From a virus, in the IMG/VR virus record IMGVR_UViG_3300007609_001079, positions 1-64,000 of that record: a stretch of DNA of 64,000 nucleotides, one strand, 5' to 3'. Shown here one piece after another: positions 17,948 through 36,120 of this stretch. The notes under the pieces are model-generated. The model was given only the letters and a program-made list of their open reading frames with translations. It searched no databases and was not told the DNA's origin. Within the stretch, counting starts at the first letter, position 1. Every line of letters starts with the position of its first letter. The position numbers were made by a program, and so were the translations under genes.

Positions 17948-18585
17948 TAAAAAACTACCCATTTACCAGTACCATAATGTGGGTACTTCGATTCATACTT
18001 ATAATATATTACATCTTCTGGTATTTCTCTCTGAATACCATTCCATGTATCTAATGTTGGTGTGTTTGTACTTACACCATTATCTTCTACTACGAAATAC
18101 AAAGGTAAATCATAGTTTCTTGCATATTTGTGAACTTCATAGAAGATTCCACTTTCAAATGCCATATCTCCTAAAAATACCCAAACCTTATCATCACCAC
18201 CATTATACTTAATTGATTTTGCAACTCCAAGCGCAATAGGCAAAGTACCAGTTACAATTGCGGATGCATAAAATTTAGATTCTTTATCTACAATTGTAAT
18301 AGATTTACCATCAAGTATTTTTTGTTTTAATACCAATGGTTCTACACCATGTAAAAGTGCGTGATAATGAGACCTCCATGTAGAGAATACCCAATCATTA
18401 ATTCCAATTTTATCAAATATTCTGATAAGTTCCTTTTCATTACCATTAGATAAGTGAATGGGTCCTGATATTTCACCATTTTCCCAATGTGAAATTATAT
18501 CATCTTCAAAATCTACTAAATCTTGTTCAGACCAATTTCCATTAACCCATCTATCCTCATGATAATCTAAGTTTTTAATTTCCAT
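17947..18585 (-). CDS. Thiamine-diphosphate enzyme, E1-alpha/transketolase diphosphate-binding domain
   Basis: A 212-residue protein resembling the diphosphate-binding half of E1-alpha subunits. FSTWRSHYHALLHGV is the family's early histidine-rich segment. VFLGDMAFESG and VVEDNGVSTNTP form the thiamine-diphosphate motif, with GDM in place of the more common GDG and the metal-ligating N about 30 residues later. At 212 residues it is far shorter than dehydrogenase E1-alpha (about 320-400). The pyrimidine-domain partner is encoded at 13983-14531. Together they look like a minimal split enzyme dedicated to sugar biosynthesis rather than central metabolism. It overlaps the upstream RmlC-like gene by 11 bases. 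Confidence 0.78.
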   Translation of the reverse strand: MEIKNLDYHEDRWVNGNWSEQDLVDFEDDIISHWENGEISGPIHLSNGNEKELIRIFDKIGINDWVFSTWRSHYHALLHGVEPLVLKQKILDGKSITIVDKESKFYASAIVTGTLPIALGVAKSIKYNGGDDKVWVFLGDMAFESGIFYEVHKYARNYDLPLYFVVEDNGVSTNTPTLDTWNGIQREIPEDVIYYKYESKYPHYGTGKWVVF

Positions 18586-19159: not shown

Positions 19160-20111
19160 AACCTAATGGAAAATCATTTCTATAACCTGAACTTAAATTC
19201 TTTATTAGAATGGTATAGGTTTTAATTAATTCTTCGATACCATCTTCTAATGTATAATTAGGTGACCAACCAACTTTTTCTAATTTTAAATTGGAAACAA
19301 TATAATCTCGTTTATCCGGGTCCTCATAATTATCATTGTAAAAAATCTCAAAAGAAGGAATTTGTTCTTTTATTTTTTCACATAGTTGTTGTTTTGTGAG
19401 ATTTGCTGATGATAGACCAACATTGAATACTTCACCACTATGAGTTTCATATTCATTTATAATTTTTTCAAATACCAATGCCACATCTCTGATGTGAATG
19501 AAGTTTCTTACAAACTTTTTTTCAAAGAGAACTATGGATTTATCAGTTAGGGCTTTATAAACGAATTCGTTTACTAATAAATCCATTCTCATTCGAGGGG
19601 AGGTTCCAAATACGGTGGCAAGTCTTAACGAAATTCCACCGATTCCTAACACTTCTCTCTCAGCATTAACTTTAGTAACACCATAATGTGAAATGGGGTT
19701 AAGTGGACTTTCTTCAGTACACTCACCATTCTCTCCTATCCCATACCCACTATTGGTGTTCGGGTAAACCACCCTTTTATTATTTTCTTTTGCAATATCA
19801 CAAACAAACTTAACGTGTTCGTAATTTATTTGTGTTGCTAATTCCTTATCACGTTCACATGCAGGAAATCCAACGATTGCTGCAAGTGGAATTATTATAT
19901 CGTTTTGTAATACCAATTCTCTTAATAATTCCTTATCTCGTACATCACCATTAACAAATTTAAAGTTTTTTTTATGTGAAAAGATAATAGATGATGTTTG
20001 GTTATACATCATATTATCTAATACAGTAACTTTTGAAGAATTTTCTAATAGTAATTCTGTAATTACCGACCCTAAGTAACCTGCTCCTCCGGTGATAAGT
20101 ATTTTGTTCAT
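19146..20111 (-). CDS. NAD-dependent epimerase/dehydratase (extended SDR)
   Basis: A 321-residue sugar-nucleotide SDR. GGAGYLGSVI near residue 8 is the dinucleotide-binding motif, NTNSGYG is the active-site strand, YGVTK is the YxxxK catalytic pair near residue 145, and RLATVFGTSPRMRMDLLVNE and FVRNFIHIRDVA follow the pattern of UDP-glucose 4-epimerase or dTDP-glucose dehydratase relatives. The ATG overlaps the upstream radical SAM stop (ATGA). Together with the downstream RmlC-like gene and two other SDRs it forms a contiguous nucleotide-sugar module. Substrate specificity is not readable from the sequence. Confidence 0.9.
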   Translation of the reverse strand: MNKILITGGAGYLGSVITELLLENSSKVTVLDNMMYNQTSSIIFSHKKNFKFVNGDVRDKELLRELVLQNDIIIPLAAIVGFPACERDKELATQINYEHVKFVCDIAKENNKRVVYPNTNSGYGIGENGECTEESPLNPISHYGVTKVNAEREVLGIGGISLRLATVFGTSPRMRMDLLVNEFVYKALTDKSIVLFEKKFVRNFIHIRDVALVFEKIINEYETHSGEVFNVGLSSANLTKQQLCEKIKEQIPSFEIFYNDNYEDPDKRDYIVSNLKLEKVGWSPNYTLEDGIEELIKTYTILIKNLSSGYRNDFPLGYGIK

Positions 20112-21298
20112 ATAACTGAGTTTAGTTCTTTGAATGTTTCTTCAAATGATTGTTTTCTTGAAGTATCCAAAAATTTATTATTTTTTAAGAATTTTTTCCA
20201 AACAAAATCATTTATTTGAGTATCGTTCATATTCTGCAATGAACCTTTAATACCACCAACAATATGTTGTGGTATTTCTTTCTTATATAAATATATATCA
20301 AATTTTTTATTTATCAGATTTTTTGCGGAATCTGGTAAATTTGATGGTGAATAAAAATCAGGATGTGATACATCTATAAAGTAAGGATTTAAATCCATAC
20401 CCAAACACCAATCAACCAATTCATCCAAATAATATATGTTTAAATTAGTAACTGTTACAGCTACATCAAAATAAATTGAATCTGATTTATACTTTAACCA
20501 ACTTTTAATATTATTTACAACTTTATTCCAATCACCATGATGTCTTATATAATTAAATCTATCTTCAGTTGCATCCAAAGAGAATGAAATAACAACTCGT
20601 TTGAATTGTTTTAAAATTTCAATATATTCTTCTTTGAAAATAGTACCATTTGTATTAAATGATAATTCTTGGTTTTTTGCATACCCAAGTTCTATTGATT
20701 TTTTAAGAGTTTCCCATTGTTTTTTTACCAACATAGGCTCACCCCCATACATATCTATTTGTTCTATATGTGGTAGTGATTTTTCCAACTCACCCCAAAA
20801 CATAGATTCATCTTCATATGATTTATAGTTTGTTTTAACCCACTCTTTATAAACAATATCATCGGAATGCCCTCCACCCTCATCATGTATTGCTCTGTGT
20901 TCATCAAACCATTTTATGGATGCGCCAACACCACACATTCTACATGCAAGATTGCAAGTGTTACCTAAATTTAACTCTAGATATTTTACAATGGGCTCTT
21001 CCGAGTATCCTAATCTTAAATCCCGTGTTCGTCTACTTTCACCATGATATTTTTCATCATCCCAACATCGTTTACACCCATCATGTTGAATACCATTTTC
21101 TAAATCCTCAATAAGTTTTTTTCTATCGGGATTATTCATCATTTCTTCAAATGTATGAGTATCTGTTTTTATGAGTTTACTATCTTTATCTTTAAATGGT
21201 TTAGATTCATCATAATAACAACAAGGCATAACATACCCACCATTAGCTACACGAAGTCCGTTATATGAGTGAATACATTTCAGAGATTTCATATTCAT
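20108..21298 (-). CDS. Radical SAM protein with N-terminal cysteine (twitch/SPASM-like) region
   Basis: A 396-residue radical SAM enzyme. The iron-sulfur motif CNLACRMC is near residue 95 and the SAM-contacting MYGGEP follows. Before it, residues 5-70 hold CIHSYNG, MPCCYYDE and CKRCWDDE, an auxiliary-cluster-like cysteine set placed N-terminal to the radical SAM barrel, as in proteins I recall as twitch-domain radical SAM proteins from marine phages. Two start codons lie six bases apart (21298 and 21292). It overlaps the upstream small gene by 38 bases. Downstream come the sugar-nucleotide genes, so a role in modifying a sugar or peptide is plausible; the substrate is unknown. Confidence 0.85.
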   Translation of the reverse strand: MNMKSLKCIHSYNGLRVANGGYVMPCCYYDESKPFKDKDSKLIKTDTHTFEEMMNNPDRKKLIEDLENGIQHDGCKRCWDDEKYHGESRRTRDLRLGYSEEPIVKYLELNLGNTCNLACRMCGVGASIKWFDEHRAIHDEGGGHSDDIVYKEWVKTNYKSYEDESMFWGELEKSLPHIEQIDMYGGEPMLVKKQWETLKKSIELGYAKNQELSFNTNGTIFKEEYIEILKQFKRVVISFSLDATEDRFNYIRHHGDWNKVVNNIKSWLKYKSDSIYFDVAVTVTNLNIYYLDELVDWCLGMDLNPYFIDVSHPDFYSPSNLPDSAKNLINKKFDIYLYKKEIPQHIVGGIKGSLQNMNDTQINDFVWKKFLKNNKFLDTSRKQSFEETFKELNSVI

Positions 21299-21614
21299 GA
21301 TATATTATGTGAAAATTATTAGATTCATTATACATATTATATAATTTAGGAGATAATATTTTATTTAAATTTATGTGCTTTAATCTATCATCAATAACAA
21401 TTATATATAAATTCTGGTCATTAATGTATGAAGAATGTAATTCTTTAGTTAAAATTTTATTACATTCATTAAAAAATCCAAAATGTACTTTATTTTCTAA
21501 GTTATATTTTAAAACATTTATAATATTTTTTTTAGTATAACAAAAAGGCAAATACCCATTTGGGGTTTTAAAATCAAAAACTATATATAATTCCTTTTTT
21601 ATAAGATTATTCAT
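21261..21614 (-). CDS. Hypothetical protein, 117 residues
   Basis: A small protein of 117 residues, rich in N, I, K and Y, that I do not recognise. It begins MNNLIKKELYIVFDFKTPNG and contains LYIIVIDDRLKHINLNK, suggesting alternating strands and helices of a compact alpha-beta fold. It overlaps the upstream GT7-like gene stop by 4 bases (ATGA) and the downstream radical SAM start by 38 bases, so translation is likely coupled. No signal peptide, membrane segment or metal-binding motif is visible. Its very AT-rich codon use matches other poorly conserved genes in the island. Confidence 0.6.
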   Translation of the reverse strand: MNNLIKKELYIVFDFKTPNGYLPFCYTKKNIINVLKYNLENKVHFGFFNECNKILTKELHSSYINDQNLYIIVIDDRLKHINLNKILSPKLYNMYNESNNFHIIYHEYEISEMYSLI

Positions 21615-23050
21615 AGTTTCACATTTATCATTTTTGCATTAGTTCCAATTTCCTCAATACCAACCAATTCATATTTTAAAGAGTTCATACCATCTTCCTT
21701 ATAATTCCATTCACCTTGCTGCATCTGTCTGATATATCTTCTTTCATTTCTTGCGGTAGTTTCTCCTTTTTTCCATTTCATAGAACCACCTTCTTCTACC
21801 AATCCCTCATCTTCATGTTCTAAACAAAACATTCGACCAGGTACTCGATGTGGTACGGTTGTATATGGAATTTGTATATCTTCCTTTAGATATTCACAAT
21901 TATGGATAATACCATCAGAACCATTGTTGGTTTTATCCAACACTAACCCATCTTTAAAATCGTAATGTAGGGATAACCCATCATTGATTGGATTATTATG
22001 AATACATTTAACTTCATCAGATGTAAGTGCTCGATTCCACATTTTAACTTCTGCTATATCTCCTTTAAACCACTTAGATACATCGTTTAATGAAACTGAT
22101 GTGGTTGTTCCTAAATAAAAAGATGTGTTACCATATCTCTTTAAATTACCTTGAAAATACTGAGGTGATTTAGTACCTGTTCCCCACCTAGCATCCGATT
22201 CTTTACCATTCATGTAAAGATGAATTTTATCTTCATCAATAACAAGAGTTATCCAACTCCACAATCCTTCATATCGTTTCATCCATTGGTAAAGATGCTC
22301 TCCTTCATTATTCCAAAGTTGTGCGGTATATGCACGTGAGTTATTATATGATAATCCCCAATCATAACCAGGCCGTCTGAATATTGGATATTCTACAAAT
22401 CTTCGCTCCTCATCACCGATTAAATAAATTGGTACTTTATCTTCTTGTTGTTCGGCTCTAGCTAAAATAGATACAGTATGAGAACGAGATGTTATATTTC
22501 TTAGTTTTCGTGAGGGGGGAATTTCAACGTATGAATCTTTACCATTAAATCGTAAGAATTCTTTTTGAGTTCCGTTATAATCCATATATGTATCATCAGC
22601 ATATCCTTCAAGAACACATCTCCAAAATAAATCATCATCTTCCATACCCCAATCCCAATAGTCATTTGAATAACCATTGGTCTTTTCTACTTGTTCTTTT
22701 GAGAAAAGAATTGCACCTCCAAAGTATTCTTCATACTTTAGTTCGTAATTCATTTGTGAAATTTGAGTTGCAATATGTCTTGGCTTTTCTTTTGGAAAAG
22801 AATAATCACAACCCTCTTCAGGTACCATATCGATATCGTGCCATACAATATAATCACACCCATCTTCGAATGCATGTTTTGCTGCAATGTTTTTCATTGC
22901 ACCTCTGTTAAAAAGTTTATCATCGGTTTGGTGACCAAAGTACATACAGTAATCTATACCATGTTCTTCAAGATATTTACCAACTCTTGGTACAAACTCT
23001 TTTAAGTGAGTTTCTCTGTTTCTATATGGTACACAAACTCCTAATTTCAT
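21611..23050 (-). CDS. GT7-type (beta-1,4-galactosyltransferase-like) glycosyltransferase interrupted by a LamG-like domain, copy 1
   Basis: A 479-residue protein. Residues 1-160 show the GT7 series: VCVPYRNRETHL, FNRGAMKNI, WHDIDMVP (the D-x-D metal site), YFGGAILFS and YWDWGMEDDD. A concanavalin/LamG-like beta sandwich follows at about 165-370 (RSHTVSILARAEQ, HLYMNGKESD, FYLGTTTS, GDIAEVKMWNRALT). After it the GT7 C-terminal elements resume: FCLEHEDEG, matching the metal-binding histidine region, and DGMNSLKYEL, matching the DGLNSLxY tail of animal beta4GalT enzymes. The LamG unit therefore appears inserted within the catalytic fold. It should transfer a sugar from a nucleotide donor in the cytoplasm; donor and acceptor unknown. 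ATG overlaps the upstream stop (ATGA). Confidence 0.85.
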   Translation of the reverse strand: MKLGVCVPYRNRETHLKEFVPRVGKYLEEHGIDYCMYFGHQTDDKLFNRGAMKNIAAKHAFEDGCDYIVWHDIDMVPEEGCDYSFPKEKPRHIATQISQMNYELKYEEYFGGAILFSKEQVEKTNGYSNDYWDWGMEDDDLFWRCVLEGYADDTYMDYNGTQKEFLRFNGKDSYVEIPPSRKLRNITSRSHTVSILARAEQQEDKVPIYLIGDEERRFVEYPIFRRPGYDWGLSYNNSRAYTAQLWNNEGEHLYQWMKRYEGLWSWITLVIDEDKIHLYMNGKESDARWGTGTKSPQYFQGNLKRYGNTSFYLGTTTSVSLNDVSKWFKGDIAEVKMWNRALTSDEVKCIHNNPINDGLSLHYDFKDGLVLDKTNNGSDGIIHNCEYLKEDIQIPYTTVPHRVPGRMFCLEHEDEGLVEEGGSMKWKKGETTARNERRYIRQMQQGEWNYKEDGMNSLKYELVGIEEIGTNAKMINVKL

Positions 23051-23457
23051 AATGATTCTGCAATTGCGGTTTTAAACTTTGTGGTACTCCATCCATGTGA
23101 ACGATTTATCCAATGAATTAAGGTTCCTAACTCTTTGCCTGTATAGTCTTTACCCATATAATCATCACCTAAAAATCTTACATCTGGATTAATACTTTTT
23201 AATAAAAATAATAACTCAGATTCTGTATTATATGTTAAGAAAGCTGGATTTGTGAAAAAGTATTTTAACATATCCTTTCTTTCTTCGGTAGATAATATTG
23301 GTTTTAATTTTTCTGGTCTTTCCATCGTTGGGTCATCATGTAATAAGATATATTGTTTTTTACAATTATCATTTATTTCTTTAAACAACTCAATATAACC
23401 CGGATGTATAACATCAAAGTTTCCACAGATTACTCCTATTTCAGGTAAATTATTCAT
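23047..23457 (-). CDS. Cytidylyltransferase-like protein (TagD/GCT family)
   Basis: A 136-residue nucleotidyltransferase-fold protein of the length of glycerol-3-phosphate cytidylyltransferase. VICGNFDVIHPGYIELFKE is the N-terminal strand and helix, LSTEERKDML is the family's RxxxL-type helix, and INPDVRFLGDDYMGKDYTG corresponds to the PDVxVxGxDY segment. In the HxGH signature the second histidine is replaced by tyrosine (HPGY), which could change catalysis. CDP-glycerol or another CDP-activated building block for the glycan would be the expected product. Four bases separate it from the upstream radical SAM gene, and it overlaps the next by 4. Confidence 0.78.
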   Translation of the reverse strand: MNNLPEIGVICGNFDVIHPGYIELFKEINDNCKKQYILLHDDPTMERPEKLKPILSTEERKDMLKYFFTNPAFLTYNTESELLFLLKSINPDVRFLGDDYMGKDYTGKELGTLIHWINRSHGWSTTKFKTAIAESL

Positions 23458-23461
23458 AATT

Positions 23462-24649
23462 TTAATGTTGTTTTCTTATATTTTCATTTTCTTCTCGTTG
23501 AGATTCAAACAAAACATCATGACAATTCATATTTCCACATATATTAGCACATTCTAATATTTTTCCTTCTTTAAATGTCTTATCCCAACTTTTATTATAC
23601 ACATTATATAATAACCTATCTTCTATAATATTTTTTATTGTATTTGTATTTAAATTGAATTTTTCAAACCCAATTTTATCCATAGCATCAAATTGCTGTT
23701 TAAATTTAATATCTACATATTTACCTTCTAAATAATGTTTTTTCTTTGTATAGATATCATTTGCAACAAAACAACATTGATAAACATCACCATGTGATTC
23801 TACATAAAAATCATTTTCAACACATCTTGGCTCTATTTTAATATTTTCATATTTTTTAATAAAGTTTATATCCGATTCTGATAATTCATCATCAAACCAA
23901 CCAACTTGTTCATGTAACTCCCGTTCAATATAAACAACATTAGCATCATTAGATAAATAAGTTGGTTTAAATTCATCTAAAGTAGATGGGTGTAACCAAT
24001 CTACAATATTACCACGACCATCCAAAACAGGAACAGGTGTTATATTAATACCATCATCTAAATTTATTGGAGATTTAAATTGAATTTTATCAAACCCCAA
24101 TTCAAGTGATAATTTCTGTGCTTCTTCTAATTGATGTTCGTTATGTTTAAAAACTAAGTAATCCCAAGCTTTCCATATATTCCTGTTTGTAGAGTTGGAA
24201 TTAAATGATGTTACATTTTCTATTAATTTTTTCCAATTAACATTTCTTCGATAAATATGATTAGTATTTTCCAACCCATCTATACTAAATACAATTAGTG
24301 TTTCAAACGTTAATGAATTACAAGCTAAGGATAGTTCTTTCCAAAACTTAGGTGTTTTCATTCCACCATTTGTATTTATTTGAAATCGTTTAAACTCAAA
24401 ATTAGATAAGTATTTAATAATTTCTATTAAATCAGGATTTGTACACGGGTCTCCATGATTGCCACAAAATCTTAAATATTGTACATCATTTAGAACTTCA
24501 CTAGGAAACCATTTTTTAAATGTATCAATACTAATATATCCTACATTTAAATATTCACCAACAACAGTACTATTCATTATATATCTAGCACAGCAAGGAC
24601 AGGCTGCGTTACATAAAGTAGATAATTCAATATGTAACGTATCTATCAT
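23462..24649 (-). CDS. Radical SAM protein with C-terminal SPASM-like cysteines
   Basis: A 395-residue radical SAM enzyme differing from the others in the island. The CxxxCxxC motif is right at the N-terminus (LSTLCNAACPCCARYI, residues 9-24), followed by RFCGNHGDPC. The cysteine-rich auxiliary region is at the C-terminus: RCVENDFY, VYQCCFVAND and CANICGNMNC. That order, core then SPASM-like, is the standard one for SPASM enzymes that carry extra 4Fe-4S clusters and modify peptides, sugars or alcohols. The ATG overlaps the upstream GT7-like gene (ATGA). Substrate unknown; a sugar-modifying role is inferred from context. Confidence 0.83.
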   Translation of the reverse strand: MIDTLHIELSTLCNAACPCCARYIMNSTVVGEYLNVGYISIDTFKKWFPSEVLNDVQYLRFCGNHGDPCTNPDLIEIIKYLSNFEFKRFQINTNGGMKTPKFWKELSLACNSLTFETLIVFSIDGLENTNHIYRRNVNWKKLIENVTSFNSNSTNRNIWKAWDYLVFKHNEHQLEEAQKLSLELGFDKIQFKSPINLDDGINITPVPVLDGRGNIVDWLHPSTLDEFKPTYLSNDANVVYIERELHEQVGWFDDELSESDINFIKKYENIKIEPRCVENDFYVESHGDVYQCCFVANDIYTKKKHYLEGKYVDIKFKQQFDAMDKIGFEKFNLNTNTIKNIIEDRLLYNVYNKSWDKTFKEGKILECANICGNMNCHDVLFESQREENENIRKQH

Positions 24650-26088
24650 AATTCTACTGATATTTTATTTAATAAAGTATCTTCATATACATGTGTTTGA
24701 TTATACTTCAATGTATTCAATCCATCAATTTTATAATTTGCTATATGTTGCCTAACTTCGTTATAATACTTTAATTGATTGATTCTTGTTTCTTGATGTA
24801 CCCATTTATTTCCAACAGATGAGTTCGAATCATGTTTTAAAGATTTAAATCTACTATTTCTACGAAAGGGTTTTGGTAAAAAAGTTTTAAATGATTGGTT
24901 TAGTTTATAAAGATATACATTAAATAATGTTGATTGATAACTTCCACCCAAATCTATACAAGTAGTTTCCGTTGATAATTCGGGCAATAATTGTGTAAGT
25001 AAAAACTCAGAAGATTTATAATCTCCCACATTTCTTACTTTAGGTTTGTGTGGAATTTTACTTAATTCTTTTATTTCATCATCTTCCAATGCAACATCAT
25101 ATAATTCTACACTTGAAATATTTCCATATAGAAATTCTGTATTTTCTTTTTTACCATTTGCAGAACCTATAAAAATTTCATCCGATGATAGTGGTAGAAT
25201 AGAATCTTCCATTTCAATGGTATCTACCAATTCACCATTTACAAATAATGAAATATACTTACCATCATTATATCTCATTGTAAGATATACCCAAGCTTCA
25301 CCAATTATATCTGAGTTGATTGAGTATGGTTTTTTATTTACATCATAAGTTTGACAAAAGAATCTACGAAAGGAATTGTAAAATAATCCAATGTTATAAC
25401 CCGGTATAGATAAGATTGGAAATTCATCATAATCTTTATTTTCGTTTAATTTAACTCCTTGTGGTTTTACTAATACCGATATTGTAAAATCGTCTTTTAG
25501 TAATGTGGTTTTTTCTCCTTCTAATTTGATAAACGAATCCCCATTAAATTTAAATGTGTGTAGTTCGTCCGAACCGCCTATTTCGATTTGGGTTTTATCC
25601 AATTCTAAGTCAGAATCCAAACATCTAATCAGTAAGTCATCATCTTCGAATCCCCAACCCCAATATTCGTTGGAGAATCCATTTATCAATTCGAAATCTT
25701 CTTTGTTAAACATCGTTACTCCACCAAAGTAATCAAAGAAAGTGGTTTCATAATCGTGTTCTTGTAAGTGAGTTGCTAAATGTAAGGGTTTATCAGTATA
25801 AGAGTAATCTACATCTTCTGGTAACATATCAACATCATGGAATACAAAGTAATCACATCCTTTATCCAAGGCATATGTGTATCCCACATTCAAAAGTTTA
25901 CCTCTATTAAAAGGTTTATCATCTGATTGTTCTACAATAAAGATTTCATACTCTAAATTAGTAAGATACTCTTCCATATGTTTTAAGAACCTCTTTAGTT
26001 GTTGAGGTCTATCTCTATATGGAACAATAATTCCTAATTTATGATTCTGAACTCTCTTCCTTCGAAGTAGTCGTTCCTCTTTCTGCAT
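24646..26088 (-). CDS. GT7-type glycosyltransferase interrupted by a LamG-like domain, copy 2
   Basis: A 480-residue protein and the clearest of three copies. GT7 motifs at residues 18-165: IIVPYRDRPQQL, FNRGKLLNVG (near-identical to animal beta4GalT), FHDVDMLPEDVDYSY, YFGGVTMF and YWGWGFEDDD. A LamG-like sandwich spans about 170-345 (FKFNGDSFIKLEG, LFVNGELVDTIEMED, EFLYGNISSVELYDVALED). The C-terminal part contains SLKHDSNSS, aligning with the metal-binding histidine, and KIDGLNTLKYN, aligning with DGLNSLxY. The ATG at 26088 lies inside the preceding small gene (50-base overlap); no later ATG precedes the catalytic domain. Likely cytoplasmic sugar transfer; donor unknown. Confidence 0.87.
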   Translation of the reverse strand: MQKEERLLRRKRVQNHKLGIIVPYRDRPQQLKRFLKHMEEYLTNLEYEIFIVEQSDDKPFNRGKLLNVGYTYALDKGCDYFVFHDVDMLPEDVDYSYTDKPLHLATHLQEHDYETTFFDYFGGVTMFNKEDFELINGFSNEYWGWGFEDDDLLIRCLDSDLELDKTQIEIGGSDELHTFKFNGDSFIKLEGEKTTLLKDDFTISVLVKPQGVKLNENKDYDEFPILSIPGYNIGLFYNSFRRFFCQTYDVNKKPYSINSDIIGEAWVYLTMRYNDGKYISLFVNGELVDTIEMEDSILPLSSDEIFIGSANGKKENTEFLYGNISSVELYDVALEDDEIKELSKIPHKPKVRNVGDYKSSEFLLTQLLPELSTETTCIDLGGSYQSTLFNVYLYKLNQSFKTFLPKPFRRNSRFKSLKHDSNSSVGNKWVHQETRINQLKYYNEVRQHIANYKIDGLNTLKYNQTHVYEDTLLNKISVEL

Positions 26089-26302
26089 CTCTTGATGGTC
26101 TGTTTTCAGGTAAGTTATCTAATGTTGCGTTTCTTCCTTTAACTGCGAATTTAGCTAAATTGTGAATTTCCCACAAATTCCACTCAACTTTCTTTTGGTG
26201 GTCTTTGATTTCAGCATCAAATAACATATCTTCAATTGCTTGAGTAGATTCCAAAATCTCACCCATAAGCTCCATATGCTGTTTAAATTGTTCGTCTGTC
26301 AT
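26039..26302 (-). CDS. Small hypothetical protein, 87 residues
   Basis: An 87-residue acidic helical protein, MTDEQFKQHMELMGEILES and onward, with a hydrophilic C-terminal tail rich in S, E and T. I do not recognise it. It sits one base after the upstream GT7-like gene and overlaps the next GT7-like gene by 50 bases, so it is wedged between two paralogues. That placement could mean it is an accessory subunit or simply a remnant of intergenic coding. No cysteine clusters, signal peptide or membrane segment are present. Confidence 0.6.
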   Translation of the reverse strand: MTDEQFKQHMELMGEILESTQAIEDMLFDAEIKDHQKKVEWNLWEIHNLAKFAVKGRNATLDNLPENRPSRDAERGTTTSKEESSES

Positions 26303-26303
26303 C

Positions 26304-27794
26304 TTATGTAATTATTTTAAATGATTCGTAATTTATTTCCTCGTTTGTTTCTTTTACTAAATTATAATCCAATGAATTTAATCCAATATCTTTCCAATCT
26401 ATATCTTTAGTTAATATATCATAGAAAAATATATCTGAATTTTCTATTACATCTGGATCATAATCATAGTATCTACCAATAATATCAGTATCACGTGAGT
26501 GTGTTAATGTATTATATTTACCAGGATATCTAACAGGTAGATAAACAGGATCCGCTACTGATATTATTTTGTTTTCAGTTATTGGTGTTCCTATAACTCG
26601 TAAGTGATTAAAGTTTTTGCCATTATCCAAAACTATTTTTTTATATGAATGAGATGGGTAGTTAAAATTTTCATCGTGATTACCAAAATCTAAATTAATT
26701 ATAGGTGAAATCCCAAATTGAGTTTCTAAATAATTTAAAGATTCATATCCATTGTAATAAAGTTCTGATATATCATCATCGGATAATATTCTATCAAACA
26801 TCATAACAGATGCTAATTCAATTTGAGAATCTATGTCAGAAATTATAATATCTTTATAATGTGGGTGGATTTTAAAATCATTTGGAATATCTACACTATG
26901 CGTTTTTCCATTTAAATTTAATTTTAATAAATTATTTTTTAAATCTACACCAAAAACTATATGATTCCATTGATTTCGATAATAACCAACGGATAAACCA
27001 TAACTCTTTTCAACATCATCCCAAATCTGACACATAATTTGTGTACTATTGTTCAGAAATATTCCAGTATCTAATCCTTTAAAATAAAATAATTTTTTAA
27101 TATCGGAATATTCTCCATTATCATTGAACCATAAAGAAATACTAAATGATTTTGTAATTGATTCTTTTGTTAATGGGTTTATCAATCCAACTGAATACGT
27201 ATCTAATGGAAATTTAACAATTTTTAATAAATGCGTTTTATCGTTTGAAGATATCTTTACATTTTCAATTCTATATGGTAATGTATCTGATAAATTTTCA
27301 TTTGAATAAACTTTATTTAAATCATAAAACTTTTCAGTATGGGCACCACTTTGTTTTAATCGATATAATAAATCTAAATCTTCAAATCCATATCCCCAAT
27401 ATTCATTTGAATAACCATTTGCTTCTACAAAATCTTCACGATTTATTAACACCACTCCACCAAAGTATTGTGGGTAAGGTAGTTTATAACCATGTGCTTG
27501 AACCTGAGTAGCTAAATGAATGGGAACATCTGGATATGAATAATCACAATCATCATTCATTGGTAACATATCAATATCATGAAATGCAAAATAGGTATAT
27601 TCTTCACCGATTTCCTTTACAACAACATTACATAATTTACCATAATTAAATGGTCTATCATCCGATTGTTCTGCAATAAAAATGGTGTAATCAATCCCCT
27701 TATCCTTTAAGAATTCATGCATATGGGGAACAAAAATATCTAAGTGTTTTTGTCTGTCCCTAAAAGGAACGATGATTGCAAGTTTTTCTTCCAT
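26304..27794 (-). CDS. GT7-type glycosyltransferase interrupted by a LamG-like domain, copy 3
   Basis: A 496-residue protein heading a transcription unit: a TATATTTATA box lies 16 bases before the ATG. GT7 motifs: IIVPFRDRQKHL, FNYGKLCNV, FHDIDMLP, YFGGVVLIN and YWGYGFEDLDLL, where the usual EDDD is EDLD. The LamG-like insert occupies about residues 205-395 (SISLWFNDNG, NHIVFGVDLK, LNLNGKTHSVDIP, IELASVMMFDRILSD). The C-terminus resumes with TLTHSRDTD, an exact match in spacing and HSRD sequence to the metal-binding segment of animal beta4GalT, and then DIGLNSLDYNL. The altered acidic motif may change the donor or lower activity. Substrate unknown. Confidence 0.86.
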   Translation of the reverse strand: MEEKLAIIVPFRDRQKHLDIFVPHMHEFLKDKGIDYTIFIAEQSDDRPFNYGKLCNVVVKEIGEEYTYFAFHDIDMLPMNDDCDYSYPDVPIHLATQVQAHGYKLPYPQYFGGVVLINREDFVEANGYSNEYWGYGFEDLDLLYRLKQSGAHTEKFYDLNKVYSNENLSDTLPYRIENVKISSNDKTHLLKIVKFPLDTYSVGLINPLTKESITKSFSISLWFNDNGEYSDIKKLFYFKGLDTGIFLNNSTQIMCQIWDDVEKSYGLSVGYYRNQWNHIVFGVDLKNNLLKLNLNGKTHSVDIPNDFKIHPHYKDIIISDIDSQIELASVMMFDRILSDDDISELYYNGYESLNYLETQFGISPIINLDFGNHDENFNYPSHSYKKIVLDNGKNFNHLRVIGTPITENKIISVADPVYLPVRYPGKYNTLTHSRDTDIIGRYYDYDPDVIENSDIFFYDILTKDIDWKDIGLNSLDYNLVKETNEEINYESFKIIT

Positions 27795-27809
27795 GTAACT
27801 TTAATTATA

Positions 27810-27819
27810 TATAAATATA
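27810..27819 (-). promoter_or_regulatory. Late-type promoter box TATATTTATA
   Basis: Exact decamer on the coding strand, 16 bases before the ATG of the GT7-LamG gene at 27794, in a 32-base gap between genes. It indicates that the downstream half of the island (27.8 to 11.1 kb) can be transcribed separately. Function inferred. Confidence 0.6.
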
Positions 27820-27826
27820 TAAAATT

Positions 27827-29104
27827 TTATATTGTAGATTTTTTTAAAGAATTATACAATTCGGGAAATAATTCTTTCCAATCTTCTTTTCTAAATTTAT
27901 CAACTGTTTCGGTTGTTCTAATAAAGGTATTAGATTCCCCATTATATTCTGCGTTATAATACCTACCAACTACATCATCATAAAACTCATCTGATAGTAA
28001 TCCTTTTATAGAATCTAATTTTTCTTGTCGTATTTGTTTTGGAATAATATTTGCTGATTGATATTCTGGTGCATGAACATGATTTGATATGATTCGTTTG
28101 ATTAAACCACTACCATTTAATTTAAACATACCACGTTTTACCAAATACTGAGTAAGTTCTTCCATATAGAGGAAGTTATAAGAATTTAATGTTTGTGTAA
28201 TGGTATAATAAAAATTATGGTCATTATATTCGGTAATGAATTTCTTTATATTATCTATTGTAAGTTTAAAGTTTGCGTTTTTTCTAATATAATCGTTTCT
28301 ATCACCAAAATCATCTACTGAAATAGATATACCAACGAATTGGAAATGTTTTAGTTTTTCTAATGCAGGTTTTATCTTTTCAAAATCGTAATTAGCGTTT
28401 GTAATATAAAATATTTTCATTTTACTCGCTAAACCATCTTCAATTAATCTATCCAATAATTTAAAGTGTTTTGGAACTAAAAAGGGCTCTCCACCACTAA
28501 TATGTAATTGGTCTATCATTGGTGAGTGTTCAATCAAAGCATTATAAAAATCCTCATCCTCAACCCAATCATAGTTTGTATATTTCATTGTTTGTAACTC
28601 ATCGTAGTTACTTGGGAAATTAACTTTATCTTTAAGATTCATGTAATCGTTAATCCAACTGGTAGATGATTCTGCATTACAACTTCTACATTTTAAATTA
28701 CAATAGTTACCTAATCTAATTTCTACGTTTCTTAAATCTATCTTTATACTTCCATCGGGTTTTGTTGATTTATCAACATCCGTATTATAAAAAGAATCTT
28801 TTTGTCTTTTACTTTTTCCACCTGCCAATTCTACATCATGACAAGTTTTACAAGCAGGGGGAACTTCACCAGCAACCATCTGCCTTCTGATTTCTTTAAA
28901 TGAATCTGAGTTTATAATTGCAGGGATACCCTCACTAATATTTATCTTTTCGTATCCACCATCAGGTAAAATATTAGATGCAGCTGATTGTCCATGTGCG
29001 TGATTGGATACACAACATACGGAACATACACCATGTGGATGAACACTAATATGTTTCCAAGGTAAATCGCATAAAAATCTATTCTCCGTTTTCATAAAGT
29101 GCAT
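27827..29104 (-). CDS. Radical SAM protein with N-terminal cysteine (twitch/SPASM-like) region
   Basis: A 425-residue radical SAM protein. The N-terminal region has FLCDLPWKHISVHPHG, VCSVCCVSNH and CKTCHDVE. The core motif CNLKCRSC lies near residue 135, followed by NAESSTSW, and HISGGEP is the SAM-contacting strand. The most similar neighbours are the genes at 29079-30395 and 20108-21298. The start is ATG at 29104, with an alternative at 29095; both overlap the upstream gene. Radical SAM chemistry could be epimerisation, dehydration or C-C bond formation on a sugar or peptide. Nothing in the sequence fixes the substrate. Confidence 0.86.
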   Translation of the reverse strand: MHFMKTENRFLCDLPWKHISVHPHGVCSVCCVSNHAHGQSAASNILPDGGYEKINISEGIPAIINSDSFKEIRRQMVAGEVPPACKTCHDVELAGGKSKRQKDSFYNTDVDKSTKPDGSIKIDLRNVEIRLGNYCNLKCRSCNAESSTSWINDYMNLKDKVNFPSNYDELQTMKYTNYDWVEDEDFYNALIEHSPMIDQLHISGGEPFLVPKHFKLLDRLIEDGLASKMKIFYITNANYDFEKIKPALEKLKHFQFVGISISVDDFGDRNDYIRKNANFKLTIDNIKKFITEYNDHNFYYTITQTLNSYNFLYMEELTQYLVKRGMFKLNGSGLIKRIISNHVHAPEYQSANIIPKQIRQEKLDSIKGLLSDEFYDDVVGRYYNAEYNGESNTFIRTTETVDKFRKEDWKELFPELYNSLKKSTI

Positions 29105-30395
29105 CTGATAGTTTTAAATCCTTTCTATATGGTATTGACTCATACCATTCTTTATATTCAGGAATAATATCTAAAAATCTATATTTTTCTTCCCTACCAT
29201 CATCTAAAATTTCGGTTGTGTGTTTTAAAACCTTTTCAATTCGTTCTCTTGGTTCAGATAAGGGTTCATCCATAAAATTAAATAAAGATTCATACTTAGG
29301 TCTTAATGCATTAGCCTCTTCTTCATTTAATGATTTTAAATGTTGTATGTATCTTTTTTTAGTTTCGTTCTTTAAATCATCGGGTAATATATTAATAGAA
29401 TAATGAAATGGATTTGTCAATACATTATTTAAATGAATATTCCAATGAGGTACTCCTAACCTTTTCCAATACTCAATATACTCAGGAATATACATTACAT
29501 TAAAAATATTAGTCGTACATGATATATGGAAGTTTATATGATTATTTATACATTTTTTTATATTTTCTTCAATAATATCCCATTTTGTACCCTTACGAGA
29601 ATATTCTGCATTTTTACCAACACCATCTATTGATGCAAATATAGTTACGTTTCCATAATCCTTTTCTATAAATGGTTTCCATAACTCTAAGTTATCATAT
29701 TGTTTAAATTTAAGATAACCTAAGTTTGTATTATATCGTAATCGTAGATTAGTATTACCAACCTCTACAAGTTTTTGTAAAATATAATAATGTTCTTCCA
29801 TTAAAAGGGGTTCACCACCTGCAAAATATATTTCTTCTACATCATTAATAAATTCATCTAAATAAAGATTAATATCTTTTTGAGAATAATTATTAACATT
29901 TATAATAGCTTGAGGTAACTCAGAACCACCGAATATTTTAACTTCATCTTCATACCACTTTGAAGATAAAAAAGAACCACACATTCTACATTTCATATTA
30001 CATAAATTGGAAAATCTAAAATCCCAATAAAGTAATTTAAAATCATTATTATGCCCATCCGCAGTTGTATTTTTAGTAATATCAGGTATATGTTTTTCAT
30101 ACCATCTATTAGAAGATGTCCTTGTAGAATCTAAAGAGTTTTTTTCTTGTTGAAAACACTTTCTACAATTATAATGCTTCTTTCCTTCCAGCATATACTG
30201 ACGGATTTCTTTCATTTTTTTATTATTCCACAACTCTTCTAATGTGTTGTGTTTTAGATTTCCAATCTCTTCTCTCCAATCAGTAAGACAGCATGGATAT
30301 ACATTACCATTTGGCCACGTGTTTAAATGTAACCAAGGTAAAACACAAAATGTTTTACTAATTTTATCACCAGGATTTTCTAATTGTTCACTCAT
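29079..30395 (-). CDS. Radical SAM protein with N-terminal cysteine (twitch/SPASM-like) region
   Basis: A 438-residue radical SAM protein. N-terminal FCVLPWLHLNTWPNGNVYPC continues to a double cysteine and CLTDW, then EEIGNLKHNTLEELWNN, then CRKCFQQE. This is the layout of a SPASM-type domain, but it precedes the radical SAM barrel. The core motif CNMKCRMC is near residue 137 and YFAGGEP follows. A Y-N-T-N-L strand and FASIDGVGKNAEYSR match the later barrel strands of anaerobic-sulfatase-maturase-like enzymes. It starts 2 bases after the upstream stop. Substrate unknown. Confidence 0.87.
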   Translation of the reverse strand: MSEQLENPGDKISKTFCVLPWLHLNTWPNGNVYPCCLTDWREEIGNLKHNTLEELWNNKKMKEIRQYMLEGKKHYNCRKCFQQEKNSLDSTRTSSNRWYEKHIPDITKNTTADGHNNDFKLLYWDFRFSNLCNMKCRMCGSFLSSKWYEDEVKIFGGSELPQAIINVNNYSQKDINLYLDEFINDVEEIYFAGGEPLLMEEHYYILQKLVEVGNTNLRLRYNTNLGYLKFKQYDNLELWKPFIEKDYGNVTIFASIDGVGKNAEYSRKGTKWDIIEENIKKCINNHINFHISCTTNIFNVMYIPEYIEYWKRLGVPHWNIHLNNVLTNPFHYSINILPDDLKNETKKRYIQHLKSLNEEEANALRPKYESLFNFMDEPLSEPRERIEKVLKHTTEILDDGREEKYRFLDIIPEYKEWYESIPYRKDLKLSDALYENGE

Positions 30396-30397
30396 AT

Positions 30398-31753
30398 CTA
30401 TGCTTCTATTTTTTGTATAGTATCAAACCATTCTATAAATTGAGTTGGTAGATAATCTTCTATTGGTTTTTGTCTACGTTTAGCGTATTGTTCTACAAAG
30501 TTTTTGAAATCATTATGTTTATTTTCCATATTATCGGAATCTTCATATGATACATCAACTTTTCTTAAATAGGTAAGTAATCGTTCATAGTGATTAATTT
30601 CCCACTCCTTCATCCAATCTTTATTTTCCTTAATTGTTTTTTCTAATCTATCAGCAACTGCGTTTTTAACGTCTTGAGAAATAATATTTACTGATTGGAA
30701 TGATGGGAATCTTAAAATATTTACACTCATATAGAATGCTTCTTTATCATTAAATTCTTTTCGCCACCCAACAATCTTTTGTAAAAATTCATCTACACTC
30801 CATATGGATAATGCTGATATTGTCATCATAATATGTACTGAACGAATATTTTCAGAATGATATGCTCGTAATATGTTCTTTTCCCAAGTATCCCATTCAA
30901 ACCCATCTCTTACAAATTCTTGTAATTCACCAATACATTCTGCAGAAGTATAAACATCAAATGATTTAAAGTTTTTTGCGGCATCTAATAGAGTATCCAT
31001 TCTCTCATCTTCTAAGATAAGATTTGAATTTACTGCGAAATCAAATGTTTCGTTATCACACATCTCAAGTAATTGCCAAAACGAAGGGGAACGAGCAGGT
31101 TCTCCACCCGATACTCTTAATTCTTGTAATCCTCCTCTGATTTCTTCGAACCACTCATAGAATTTCTCAATATAAGGGTTGTTTATGTTTTTGTTACCAT
31201 ATGGCATTGCGTGGTGACCAGTATTCTTAAAAGTAAAACCACCAGTTGTTTTCATATTCTGATAAGGTCCTCCACGAGAAATATCTTGATGCCAAGTTGA
31301 TGAGAATTCAGCGTTACAATAAGAACAAGCTAAATTACATAAGTTATCAAATGCCAATTCAACTGTTTTTGGAATTACGTTTGCATCCCAAGGCATATTT
31401 TGAATTGCCTTTACTTCCTCATCGGTATATCTGTAAGTTTGATAAACTCTATCAGAAAATAAACCACTATCTTTTTTAGCGGCATCTTCCACTCTCCAGC
31501 AATAAGAACATTCAGATGGCCTTTCACCATTTAACATTAACTTACGTTGTTCTTTTTTAAATTTGGTATTATGTAAAGCCGTTTTGTTTTCTAACAACTC
31601 ACCCTTTGGTATAGAGTGTGCGAGTGGGTGGTGACAAGAAGCGGTTCTTCCATTACCTAACCAAATAGATACATTGTACCATTTAGCTGCACAAAAGGAA
31701 GTTGATATAGAATCAATTAACTTCGCTGTATTTTGTAAACTTTTTTCTGACAT
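30398..31753 (-). CDS. Radical SAM protein, tandem group member 3
   Basis: A 451-residue protein and the third member of a tandem of close paralogues. Shared marks: FCAAKWYNVSIWLGNG, SCHHPLAH, ALHNTKFKKEQRKLMLNG, CSYCWRVED, FSDRVYQTY, the core CNLACSYC, SSTWHQDISRGGPY, and RVSGGEPARSP. Compared with the 29079 and 27827 proteins, the CC pair is replaced by CHH, suggesting a different metal site. It overlaps the upstream paralogue by 37 bases. The three tandem members may form a complex or act in sequence; this is inference from co-location. Confidence 0.86.
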   Translation of the reverse strand: MSEKSLQNTAKLIDSISTSFCAAKWYNVSIWLGNGRTASCHHPLAHSIPKGELLENKTALHNTKFKKEQRKLMLNGERPSECSYCWRVEDAAKKDSGLFSDRVYQTYRYTDEEVKAIQNMPWDANVIPKTVELAFDNLCNLACSYCNAEFSSTWHQDISRGGPYQNMKTTGGFTFKNTGHHAMPYGNKNINNPYIEKFYEWFEEIRGGLQELRVSGGEPARSPSFWQLLEMCDNETFDFAVNSNLILEDERMDTLLDAAKNFKSFDVYTSAECIGELQEFVRDGFEWDTWEKNILRAYHSENIRSVHIMMTISALSIWSVDEFLQKIVGWRKEFNDKEAFYMSVNILRFPSFQSVNIISQDVKNAVADRLEKTIKENKDWMKEWEINHYERLLTYLRKVDVSYEDSDNMENKHNDFKNFVEQYAKRRQKPIEDYLPTQFIEWFDTIQKIEA

Positions 31754-33096: not shown

Positions 33097-34511
33097 TACA
33101 GTTTGCCACACTCCTCGTAAAATTCTGCTAATTCTGGAAAAGTTTCTTTGAAGTTAGTACCTCTACGTTCATCATGAGCTTTAAACATATTGTAGAAGTT
33201 TCTACGAAGTTTATTCTGTTCACTTTCATCTATTGGTTCATCAAACCAATCTATAATTCTTCGTATTTTTCCAATCTCAATTTGAGTAAATCCTAAATAC
33301 CAATCTTTCCATTCTTCTATTTCCCAAAGTGGTTTAATAGTATGTAAAGTTTCCATTTGAATTGCAATAGATTCCAAAGTATCTCTCCATTCTTTTGGTA
33401 AAATTTTTACAATCTGATGGGTGGGATATCTTAGATAAGCAGAATCTAAAGTTAAAGCGGTTACCCAATATCTATCTGGTGAATTGTGTTTTACCTTTTG
33501 TTCAAATACCCAATCCACTAAATCAGCATATTTTGGAACTGATAAAGCATTGAAGGTACTCATCACTGCTATTGATAATTTTTTAGTTTTTGAAAGTAGT
33601 TCATCAACTCTACGTTGCCATTCATCAAATTCTAGACCATTTCTAATATAATCTGCTTGTTTACCAAAAGTATCAACTGATGTAAATATTGTGAGTTCCG
33701 ATACTCTACCACTTTCTTCCAATTGAACTAACTTCTCTACCAATTTATCATAAAGAACAGCAGGTACACCTAAGTTAGAATTTATAGATAATTTTAAATT
33801 AGTGTTTGGGTTATCAGTAGTAAGAATGTGGTCAATTACTTTCCAAAAATCAGGAGACATTGAAGGTTCACCACCGGTAATCCTAAAAGTGTGCATATCT
33901 TTATACAAATCTGGCCACCATTCCCAAAACGCATCTACATATGGATTTGGTTCAGAATGTTTATAAGGCATTTTACCAACTTCCTCAAACCACTCTAAAT
34001 TATTAAAGTTATCAGTAGTGGGATATGCACCATGTTTTTTTAATTCAGTTACCCATGCTGATGAATATTGAGGTCCACAATATGAACATTTAAAGTTACA
34101 TGCATTTGAAAAAGCAACCTCAACATATTTTGGATTATAGTTTTTTCTCCAAGGAGTATTTTTAATTTCATCAAAAAATGGTTCTGACCAAGGTTCTGAT
34201 GATTTATATGTTCTATCAGAAAACTCCGGTCCACTGTCCTCAACTTTCCAACAGTAATCACATTCATCAGGCCTACCACCTTCTAACATCTCCTTACGTT
34301 GACGTTTTTTATGTTTGGTATTATGAAGTGCGGTTGGGTTTCTTCTTAATTCTAATAATGGAATTTTATGAGGTATAGGGTGGTGACAAGAATGTGTTTC
34401 ACCATTTTGCAAATGAATTGTAACTTGTGTCCATTTTGCTAAACAAAAACCACAACCAGTTTCGTTTAATTTATCCCTTAAATCGTAAAGTTCTCCTCTA
34501 TGGTCTATCAT
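33096..34511 (-). CDS. Radical SAM protein, tandem group member 1
   Basis: A 471-residue protein, first of the tandem trio in transcription order. Motifs: CGFCLAKWTQVTIHLQNG, SCHHPIPH, ALHNTKHKKRQRKEML, CDYCWKVED, FSDRTYKSS, core CNFKCSYC near residue 140, SSAWVTELKKHGAYP and RITGGEPSMSPDFW. The N-terminal cysteines and histidines precede the barrel as in the other two. ATG overlaps the upstream GT2-like stop (ATGA). Genes for a GT2 transferase and a methyltransferase lie immediately upstream, consistent with a glycan-modification unit. Confidence 0.87.
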   Translation of the reverse strand: MIDHRGELYDLRDKLNETGCGFCLAKWTQVTIHLQNGETHSCHHPIPHKIPLLELRRNPTALHNTKHKKRQRKEMLEGGRPDECDYCWKVEDSGPEFSDRTYKSSEPWSEPFFDEIKNTPWRKNYNPKYVEVAFSNACNFKCSYCGPQYSSAWVTELKKHGAYPTTDNFNNLEWFEEVGKMPYKHSEPNPYVDAFWEWWPDLYKDMHTFRITGGEPSMSPDFWKVIDHILTTDNPNTNLKLSINSNLGVPAVLYDKLVEKLVQLEESGRVSELTIFTSVDTFGKQADYIRNGLEFDEWQRRVDELLSKTKKLSIAVMSTFNALSVPKYADLVDWVFEQKVKHNSPDRYWVTALTLDSAYLRYPTHQIVKILPKEWRDTLESIAIQMETLHTIKPLWEIEEWKDWYLGFTQIEIGKIRRIIDWFDEPIDESEQNKLRRNFYNMFKAHDERRGTNFKETFPELAEFYEECGKL

Positions 34512-35353
34512 ACTGAAACTATTTTATCTATAAGTATTTCCCATTGTGAATAACTCTGATGATAATTTTCATCCATTTTTTCAATGTGGAAATCTGGATT
34601 ATCTATATCGATTTTCCAATCATTTAATTGTATCCCTCGATACATTTTTTTATATTCCTGCCAATAAGTGTAATCTTCTTTCGTTTCACTTACTTCTTTT
34701 AATCTTTCTAAAACAGTTGAATCCCATTTAAAATGATGAACTTGTACAAATCCTTCACCTTTACCAATTGGATATTTCTTTTTATGAAATTTCCCCCAGC
34801 TGTTTTTACCATCTTCACCTACAATTGCATAGTGTTGACCCGAAGTTACATCAACCGAACCTTTCATTACACAAACTTTGTTAGGACAAGCCCCACTCAT
34901 TGGATATCTAAAAAATCCTGCTAATGGGAAAGATTTCCAAATATCCGTATATCTGTGAACATTTGGAAACTTCCCTCCTTCTCCTATCCTATCGAGAAAT
35001 CCACCTGTGATAAACTCCCATCCATTTTCTTCACATTCTTTTATCATCTTACGAATGTTTTTTGGATACAAGTGAAATTCATCATCATCCGCAACCACCC
35101 ACCATTCATCTGGTTTAGTTTGCTTTACTTTGTTATATAATTCAGTTACCTTCTCCCAATTAAATTTAGGTTCTGTAACCACCATATAAGGTTCCACACC
35201 ACACTTCTTTACTTCTTCAAGTATTCCATCATCTTCACTCTGTCTATACACCACAACGAAGATTTCATCTACCATCGATTCGTAATGTTTTAACATATGT
35301 GGAAATAATGTAGTATTGTGTCCTACAACCGTAACTAAATTTAATTTTTGCAT
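34508..35353 (-). CDS. Glycosyltransferase family 2-like protein
   Basis: A 281-residue GT-A fold protein. LNLVTVVGHNTTLFPHMLKH is the first strand, KPDEWWVVADDDEFHLYP carries the acidic D-x-D-type metal motif near residue 90, and GGFLDRIGEGG and VQVHHFKWDSTVLERLKEV resemble proteins annotated as GT2-like (glyco_tranf_2_4) enzymes. No membrane segment is present. It overlaps the upstream methyltransferase by 13 bases. It should transfer a sugar from a nucleotide donor to the island's acceptor; neither is identifiable. Confidence 0.78.
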   Translation of the reverse strand: MQKLNLVTVVGHNTTLFPHMLKHYESMVDEIFVVVYRQSEDDGILEEVKKCGVEPYMVVTEPKFNWEKVTELYNKVKQTKPDEWWVVADDDEFHLYPKNIRKMIKECEENGWEFITGGFLDRIGEGGKFPNVHRYTDIWKSFPLAGFFRYPMSGACPNKVCVMKGSVDVTSGQHYAIVGEDGKNSWGKFHKKKYPIGKGEGFVQVHHFKWDSTVLERLKEVSETKEDYTYWQEYKKMYRGIQLNDWKIDIDNPDFHIEKMDENYHQSYSQWEILIDKIVSV

Positions 35354-36120
35354 CTTTGTAATATCGTTAAACCTGTTGAAGATGGTTTACTTCTAAATAT
35401 ACCATTATTGAATAAGTTGAAAATTTCCCAATCACTATCCTGCTTTAATTCTTTAATTAATTGAGCGGGTCCATTTGCATATTCTTGATGAAATCCTTCT
35501 CTGATATCATCTGTTATATAATGTTCTTTTTCAAATGAGATATCAGTATCGTGAATAGAAATTATACCATGTGGTTGAAGTAATTGAGAATATAATTCAA
35601 AATCTTGTTTTACATCTTCATAGGAATGACCAGCATCAATATGTAGATAATCTATTTTTATATCTTCTTTAACAAAAAAATCATAGAAAGCTCGTTCGGT
35701 AGTTGTAAGTAATAACCTTGGGTCAAAGTTTTTTCTAAAGAAAGAATTCTCATCAGTCCAATCGGTAAATCCACCAACTCCATTTGATGCATCTACAAGG
35801 TACGTTGAACCAATATCACCCCAATTTATATCATTATTTCCTCCAAAGATTCCAGCCTCGTATAAATCGAATCTTGCTTGTGTCATTATCCGTGGAATAA
35901 ATCCTCCACCACTTCCTAAACATACACAAGTTTTAGCACGAAGATAATGAATTAAAGAATAAATTAACAACCCATCACCCAAATGTAAATCACCAGCGCC
36001 ATGAGTCCATCGATATTTAATAGGAGTATGAACCTCGTACTCTCTATTAGTGTCATCTGTCTTAGTGTCTAAGTTATGGGTTATAAAGTCTTTTATATAT
36101 TTTGTATTAAGTATACTCAT
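35341..36120 (-). CDS. Class I SAM-dependent methyltransferase
   Basis: A 259-residue protein with a Rossmann methyltransferase fold. AKTCVCLGSGGGFIPRIM is the SAM-binding glycine motif, IDYLHIDAGHSYEDVKQDFE is the acidic and DAGHSY motif common in methyltransf_24-type enzymes, and GIISIHDTDIS is the next strand. These families methylate sugars, among other substrates. The 98-base leader is unusual: two runs of five G on the coding strand, a short CACT/AGTG repeat and no good ribosome site. It heads the GT2 and radical SAM tandem part of the operon. Confidence 0.82.
   Translation of the reverse strand: MSILNTKYIKDFITHNLDTKTDDTNREYEVHTPIKYRWTHGAGDLHLGDGLLIYSLIHYLRAKTCVCLGSGGGFIPRIMTQARFDLYEAGIFGGNNDINWGDIGSTYLVDASNGVGGFTDWTDENSFFRKNFDPRLLLTTTERAFYDFFVKEDIKIDYLHIDAGHSYEDVKQDFELYSQLLQPHGIISIHDTDISFEKEHYITDDIREGFHQEYANGPAQLIKELKQDSDWEIFNLFNNGIFRSKPSSTGLTILQRCKN

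Follow-up and report, generated by a model that had tools for sequence, protein, structure and literature searches.

Phage GT7 glycosyltransferases with a LamG-like domain nested inside the catalytic fold

Introduction

Can a glycosyltransferase (GT) of family GT7 accommodate a complete second domain inside its catalytic fold, and what would that domain do there? The question is raised by three intact, paralogous open reading frames (ORFs), here called A, B and C, on the minus strand of a 64,000-nucleotide stretch of viral DNA (the window), which is part of the 101,661-base IMG/VR virus record IMGVR_UViG_3300007609_001079 (its positions 1 to 64,000). A and C each share 33% identity with B. The T4-type portal protein of the record is nearest to those of Microcystis phage Mel-JY01 and Flavobacterium phage immuto. 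A first-pass annotation had read positions 21611-27794 as three GT7 enzymes, each with an inserted LamG-like sandwich; the three are present, and the range also holds a cytidylyltransferase-like gene and a radical S-adenosylmethionine (SAM) gene (Table 1).

Results

Domain architecture

Matches to Glyco_transf_7N and Glyco_transf_7C (PF13733 and PF02709) lie well above the Pfam gathering cut-offs in A, B and C. Laminin_G_3 (PF13385) scores 49.3 bits in A and 56.3 bits in B, both above the cut-off, and 24.8 bits in C, below the cut-off of 27.6; the LamG assignment in C rests on an AlphaFold2 (AF2) model and on profile-profile alignment with hhalign. The comparison with hidden Markov models that had been proposed at the outset thus bears out both GT7 parts in all three proteins, and LamG in A and B. 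The Glyco_transf_7C match ends at profile position 60-70 of 78 in A, B and C and reaches 77 in an insert-free relative; this early end is expected if the insert interrupts that domain. A profile of B aligns collinearly with animal B4GalT1 over 3-154 and 436-474; in the animal enzyme only ~28 residues separate the two stretches. The distance from the acidic motif to DGLN or DGMN is 313-338 residues in A, B and C versus 61-76 in insert-free relatives, close to the roughly 60 residues first stated for animal β4GalT.

The segment after LamG aligns over the whole tail with the C-terminal tails of insert-free relatives, with hhalign E-values, here and below those of single comparisons, of 6.4e-14 (A), 9.3e-15 (B) and 3.8e-10 (C). 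Negative controls of the same tails against radical SAM or LamG proteins gave E-values of 0.03-0.7. The first-pass annotation had made its proposal depend on GT7 similarity in this segment, and the similarity is found. The RRNGRYxxLxH pattern of some insert-free enzymes also reappears directly after the insert (RRNSRFKSLKH in B). Of the element described earlier as HSRD or HxD, only the histidine is conserved: C has the literal HSRD, B has HDSN and A has HEDE. The inserts themselves are homologous to free-standing LamG proteins of the same gene module, with E-values of 7e-17 (A), 7.5e-23 (B) and 2e-17 (C), and in A this homology spans residues 165-382. From the tail homology and the insert homology together it follows that ~240 residues with a complete LamG fold sit between the xED helix and the strand bearing the metal-binding histidine (C-His), a position assigned from sequence motifs and not by superposition. 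The proposal of a LamG unit inside the GT7 catalytic fold of all three proteins is confirmed by the Pfam matches, the collinear B4GalT1 alignment and the tail homology; homology on both sides of the insert, insert-free relatives and confident models support the nested architecture.

The structural evidence covers models of B and C, their confidence scores and their fold matches. The mean predicted local distance difference test score (pLDDT) is 89.8 for B and 89.1 for C, with predicted template-modelling scores (pTM) of 0.85 and 0.81, and the confident regions include most of the C-terminal parts. Foldseek matched B4GalT1 and B4GalT7 over ~152 columns, in the N-terminal part only (E 5e-14 for B, 3e-16 for C), and also matched LamG-type folds such as pentraxins and PAPP-A.

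Insert-free relatives and census

The uninterrupted form is represented by a 219-residue phage protein (L007) and by bacterial GT7 enzymes. Across all loci, 323 distinct complete GT7-core ORFs fall into 273 with a LamG insert and 50 without, with none intermediate. The gap between the GT7 parts is at least 180 residues in the 273 and less than 40 in 44, with no value between 40 and 180; six further ORFs have the insert-free size and no recognised tail. As the census searches were seeded mostly with insert-bearing proteins, the proportion is biased, whereas the split into two classes is not. A chance event or an assembly artefact is ruled out by the 273 distinct insert-bearing ORFs. On the core tree the insert state changes twice; a single insert clade is not rejected (approximately unbiased test, p-AU 0.617), and the constrained tree is slightly better. 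GT7 had been taken as mostly an animal family, a view that does not hold given the bacterial, phage and giant-virus homologues found here.

Catalytic residues and selection

Residue equivalences rest on alignment and on the residue numbering of the animal enzyme. The equivalents of R228, D252, D254, Y289, W314, E317, D318 and H347 are invariant in 48/48 A and 48/48 B sequences; that of D319 is invariant in A and kept in 40/48 B sequences. The 31 C sequences include nine that lack the D318 residue and ten that lack C-His, and 30 have Tyr at the R228 position. The xED base and/or C-His is lacking in 10/31 C relatives (L042, L043, L054, L057, L059-L062, L082 and L092), which mostly keep DxD; the window's own C retains DxD, D318 and C-His. 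As judged from the alignments, A and B are two catalytically invariant families, and C, with the base or the metal ligand gone from these members, is a degenerating paralogue. Three equivalent enzymes are thereby ruled out, and the initial description of three copies differing in their acidic motif needs recasting in these terms. C may be viewed as a decaying or a repurposed glycosyltransferase.

Both core and insert are under purifying selection. Approximate pairwise ratios of nonsynonymous to synonymous substitution (dN/dS, NG86 method) are 0.06-0.23 for the cores, 0.13-0.34 for the A and B inserts and 0.41-0.60 for the C inserts. A core held under constraint while its module changes faster would be in keeping with an acceptor that varies. 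As for the donor, the Y289L mutant of B4GalT1 gains transfer of N-acetylgalactosamine (GalNAc; PMC10709319). Because Tyr is invariant at the Y289 position, the A and B sequences suggest that the donor is probably UDP-galactose (UDP-Gal).

Gene neighbourhood

A and B lie in a conserved operon together with GT2, methyltransferase and radical SAM genes, mostly next to a giant S74 tail fibre. A and B co-occur in 74/79 viral loci and are adjacent in 65/79; a radical SAM gene follows A in 74/79, a GT2-like gene lies upstream in 72/79 and C is present in 46/79, all of these being lower bounds because loci with short flanks are included. In 20 larger regions the order is, with variations, tail fibre, GT-B-like gene (a label read from the sequence, with no Pfam match), methyltransferase, GT2, C, B, A, radical SAM, free-standing LamG, sugar epimerase, dTDP-sugar isomerase and thiamine pyrophosphate (TPP) enzyme. 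Of 24 related records, 21 contain S74 tail fibres and 16 contain T4-type portals. Several phages also have genes for free-standing LamG proteins within the module. A simple hydropathy scan of the module found no multi-spanning membrane protein, and hence no candidate flippase or polymerase.

Table 1. Positions of the GT7-LamG genes, their parts and neighbouring genes in the window
Feature	Position	Strand	Remarks
GT7-LamG enzyme A, WDWGMEDDD family	21611..23050	(-)	479 aa
LamG insert of A, residues ~152-396	21863..22597	(-)	Ends uncertain by several residues
C-terminal GT7 part of A, C-His H412 and DGMN	21614..21862	(-)	hhalign to insert-free tails 6.4e-14; H412 in 48/48
GT7-LamG enzyme B, WGWGFEDDD family	24646..26088	(-)	480 aa
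N-terminal GT7 part of B, residues 17-162	25603..26040	(-)	FNRGKL, DxD D85/D87, YFGG Y120, WGWGFEDDD 143-151
LamG insert of B, residues ~163-400	24889..25602	(-)	Laminin_G_3 5e-15; hhalign to free-standing LamG 7.5e-23
C-terminal GT7 part of B, residues 401-480	24649..24888	(-)	RRNSRFKSLKH with C-His H419, DGLN; hhalign 9.3e-15; second stretch of PDB profile match
GT7-LamG paralogue C, WGYGFEDLD family	26304..27794	(-)	496 aa; degenerating in relatives
LamG insert of C, residues ~152-416	26547..27341	(-)	Fastest-evolving of the inserts
C-terminal GT7 part of C, C-His H432 (LTHSRD) and GLNSL	26307..26546	(-)	hhalign 3.8e-10
Radical SAM twitch protein (NF033640)	20108..21298	(-)	Beyond A across small gene 21261-21614; radical SAM at same position conserved in relatives
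Cytidylyltransferase-like small gene	23047-23457		Between A and the following radical SAM gene; retained in several close relatives
Radical SAM gene inside the A-C range	23462-24649
GT2-like glycosyltransferase of conserved module	34508..35353	(-)	Weak Glyco_tranf_2_4, below cut-off
Methyltransferase of conserved module	35341..36120	(-)	Methyltransf_24
Tail-fibre-like protein, 1951 aa	40214..46069	(-)	C-terminal S74 intramolecular chaperone (Peptidase_S74); adjoins module

Radical SAM genes are expanded in the window: six are clustered within 20108-34511, a seventh lies at 23462-24649, and the three tested are twitch-domain NF033640 proteins. The ORFs at 13983-14531 and 17947-18585 resemble the transketolase pyrimidine-binding part and the E1-dehydrogenase TPP part, and possibly form a split TPP enzyme for an unusual sugar. 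In two other loci (L130 and L135), arrays of five and four related ~240-residue proteins lie upstream of the module; the one that was read starts LamG-like.

Distribution

Three overlapping scans of IMG/VR returned 410, 530 and 492 matching stretches, insert-free enzymes included, and the family is widespread in uncultured T4-type phages. Searches with tblastn of 50,697 deposited phage genomes gave no match to A, B, C or L007; a portal control matched 2,504 records. Uncultured aquatic phages commonly carry the family, the deposited genomes that were searched do not, and a whole phage glycan pathway therefore appears to be unexplored. Among bacterial assemblies (one genome per species), the insert form was found only as five ORFs on four short contigs of metagenome-assembled genomes (MAGs), which speaks against the insert as a bacterial feature. 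The bins of these contigs (L099-L102) carry the labels Flavobacteriales, Pelagibacterales and Gammaproteobacteria. No phage structural family was seen among ten proteins taken from three of the four contigs, although the Flavobacteriales bin holds several phage contigs, recognised by portal matches; phage contamination of the bins is likely. The best matches listed by BFVD appear to cover either the GT7 part or the LamG part, and none among them stands out as the same architecture. Among the papers searched, none was found that describes a GT7 enzyme with a nested LamG domain.

Discussion

We consider it rather probable that A and B are active UDP-sugar GT7 transferases with a built-in acceptor-binding LamG domain, working in a phage glycan pathway. 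Each would be an inverting, metal-dependent enzyme of the GT-A fold whose catalytic domain is interrupted by a complete LamG β-sandwich, with the two GT7 halves folding together around it. The LamG domain would hold the acceptor glycan or glycoprotein, and A and B would act as a pair in the phage-encoded pathway, probably transferring galactose from UDP-Gal. C is a third copy whose catalytic function is being lost in some branches of the family; it may be kept as a partner or a binding subunit. The first suggestion that the insert positions the acceptor or serves as a lid is plausible.

Several points weigh against this proposal. The packing of the GT7 halves and the placement of LamG are predictions that draw on the pLDDT and pTM of B and C only. 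The donor, acceptor and product of A and B are putative. LamG domains can also bind proteins or be scaffold only. Finally, dS is ~1 or more in many comparisons, so that dN/dS is approximate, with a consistent ranking.

The strongest competing view, to which we give somewhat less than an even chance, keeps the same enzyme chemistry and changes the target: instead of the phage particle, the pathway would decorate the host surface polysaccharide and so serve to change the receptor or to exclude superinfection. A dTDP-sugar isomerase and sugar epimerases are encoded nearby, and glycosyltransferases of the pelagimyophage host-recognition cluster have been interpreted as modifying the host surface (PMC7029224). 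However, the module offers no flippase or polymerase candidate, and adjacency to a tail fibre fits equally well with virion glycosylation, which is known in mycobacteriophages according to work cited in PMC12619734.

It is possible, but doubtful, that the inserted LamG serves protein-protein contacts in place of acceptor binding, either holding an A-B(-C) complex together or anchoring the enzymes to a virion protein, for instance the tail fibre next door. This would suit the nearly constant co-encoding of A and B, the retention of LamG in all three paralogues while C loses catalysis, the free-standing LamG proteins of the module in several phages and the S74 tail fibre beside it, although LamG/ConA folds in glycan enzymes are commonly sugar-binding. 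That the insert inactivated the enzymes, leaving A, B and C as lectin-like structural or binding proteins, finds some footing in the C relatives that lack the base and/or C-His and is highly improbable, given the catalytic positions kept in all A and B sequences except for D319 in eight of B, and the strongly constrained cores. A LamG merely C-terminal to a shortened GT7, with the last 80 residues unrelated, agrees with the lack of a separate Pfam domain after LamG and is ruled out for practical purposes by the full-length tail homology in all three proteins and the negative controls.

Returning to A and B as acceptor-binding transferases, a bolder version, which we regard as improbable, would see in the nested lectin, placed after the xED helix and before the C-His strand of the GT-A core, a new site in the fold for controlling the acceptor: A and B, assisted by a partly non-catalytic C, would take turns in building a glycan on the phage's own tail fibre next to the module, and each LamG would recognise what the other enzyme has made. 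Because insert-free relatives exist, what the insert does can be tested directly by removing the domain or grafting it, and A/B-type enzymes could be useful in glycan synthesis.

Comparison with known systems

The phage enzymes have a relative in the lactose-forming enzyme of animals. Animal B4GalT1 and B4GalT7 (CAZy GT7) share 34-41% identity with the phage proteins over the N-terminal ~150 residues and carry DxD, YFGG, WGWGxEDDD, C-His and DGLN in the same order; unlike A, B and C, they have no insert. The M344 metal-ligand position of the animal enzymes is mostly Ser or Leu in B and Cys in A, and in the window's C the R228 and W314 positions are both Tyr and the D319 position is Leu. The insert-free phage and bacterial GT7 enzymes (L007, L103-L119) share the same core and C-terminal tail; in contrast to A, B and C they lack LamG, and only ~20 residues link the xED helix to C-His. 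The free-standing LamG proteins of the module, homologous to the inserts over most of their length, have no enzyme attached.

The closest functional precedent is B4GALNT3. In the human LacdiNAc synthases B4GALNT3/4, a related transferase is joined to an extra β-sheet domain of sugar-binding type (PA14). That domain is N-terminal and not nested. A Pfam scan gives no PA14 match in A, B or C, whose insert is of a different domain family. Deletion of the PA14 domain removes nearly all activity of human B4GALNT3 (PMC11254600). A lectin domain also tunes acceptor use in the polypeptide GalNAc-transferases (GT27; PMC4432651) and in MGAT4A (GT54; PMC9296478). In both, unlike A, B and C, the lectin is C-terminal and outside the catalytic fold; instead of the DxH and C-terminal ricin-type lectin that mark GT27, A, B and C have DxD and a nested LamG.

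A survey of more than 600,000 GT-A sequences described three hypervariable positions that carry acceptor-specific extensions, namely β3-αC, β6-β7 and the C-terminal tail after β8 (PMC7185993). As placed by sequence motifs, the LamG insert falls outside all three and may therefore represent a further natural means of altering acceptor use in the GT-A fold.
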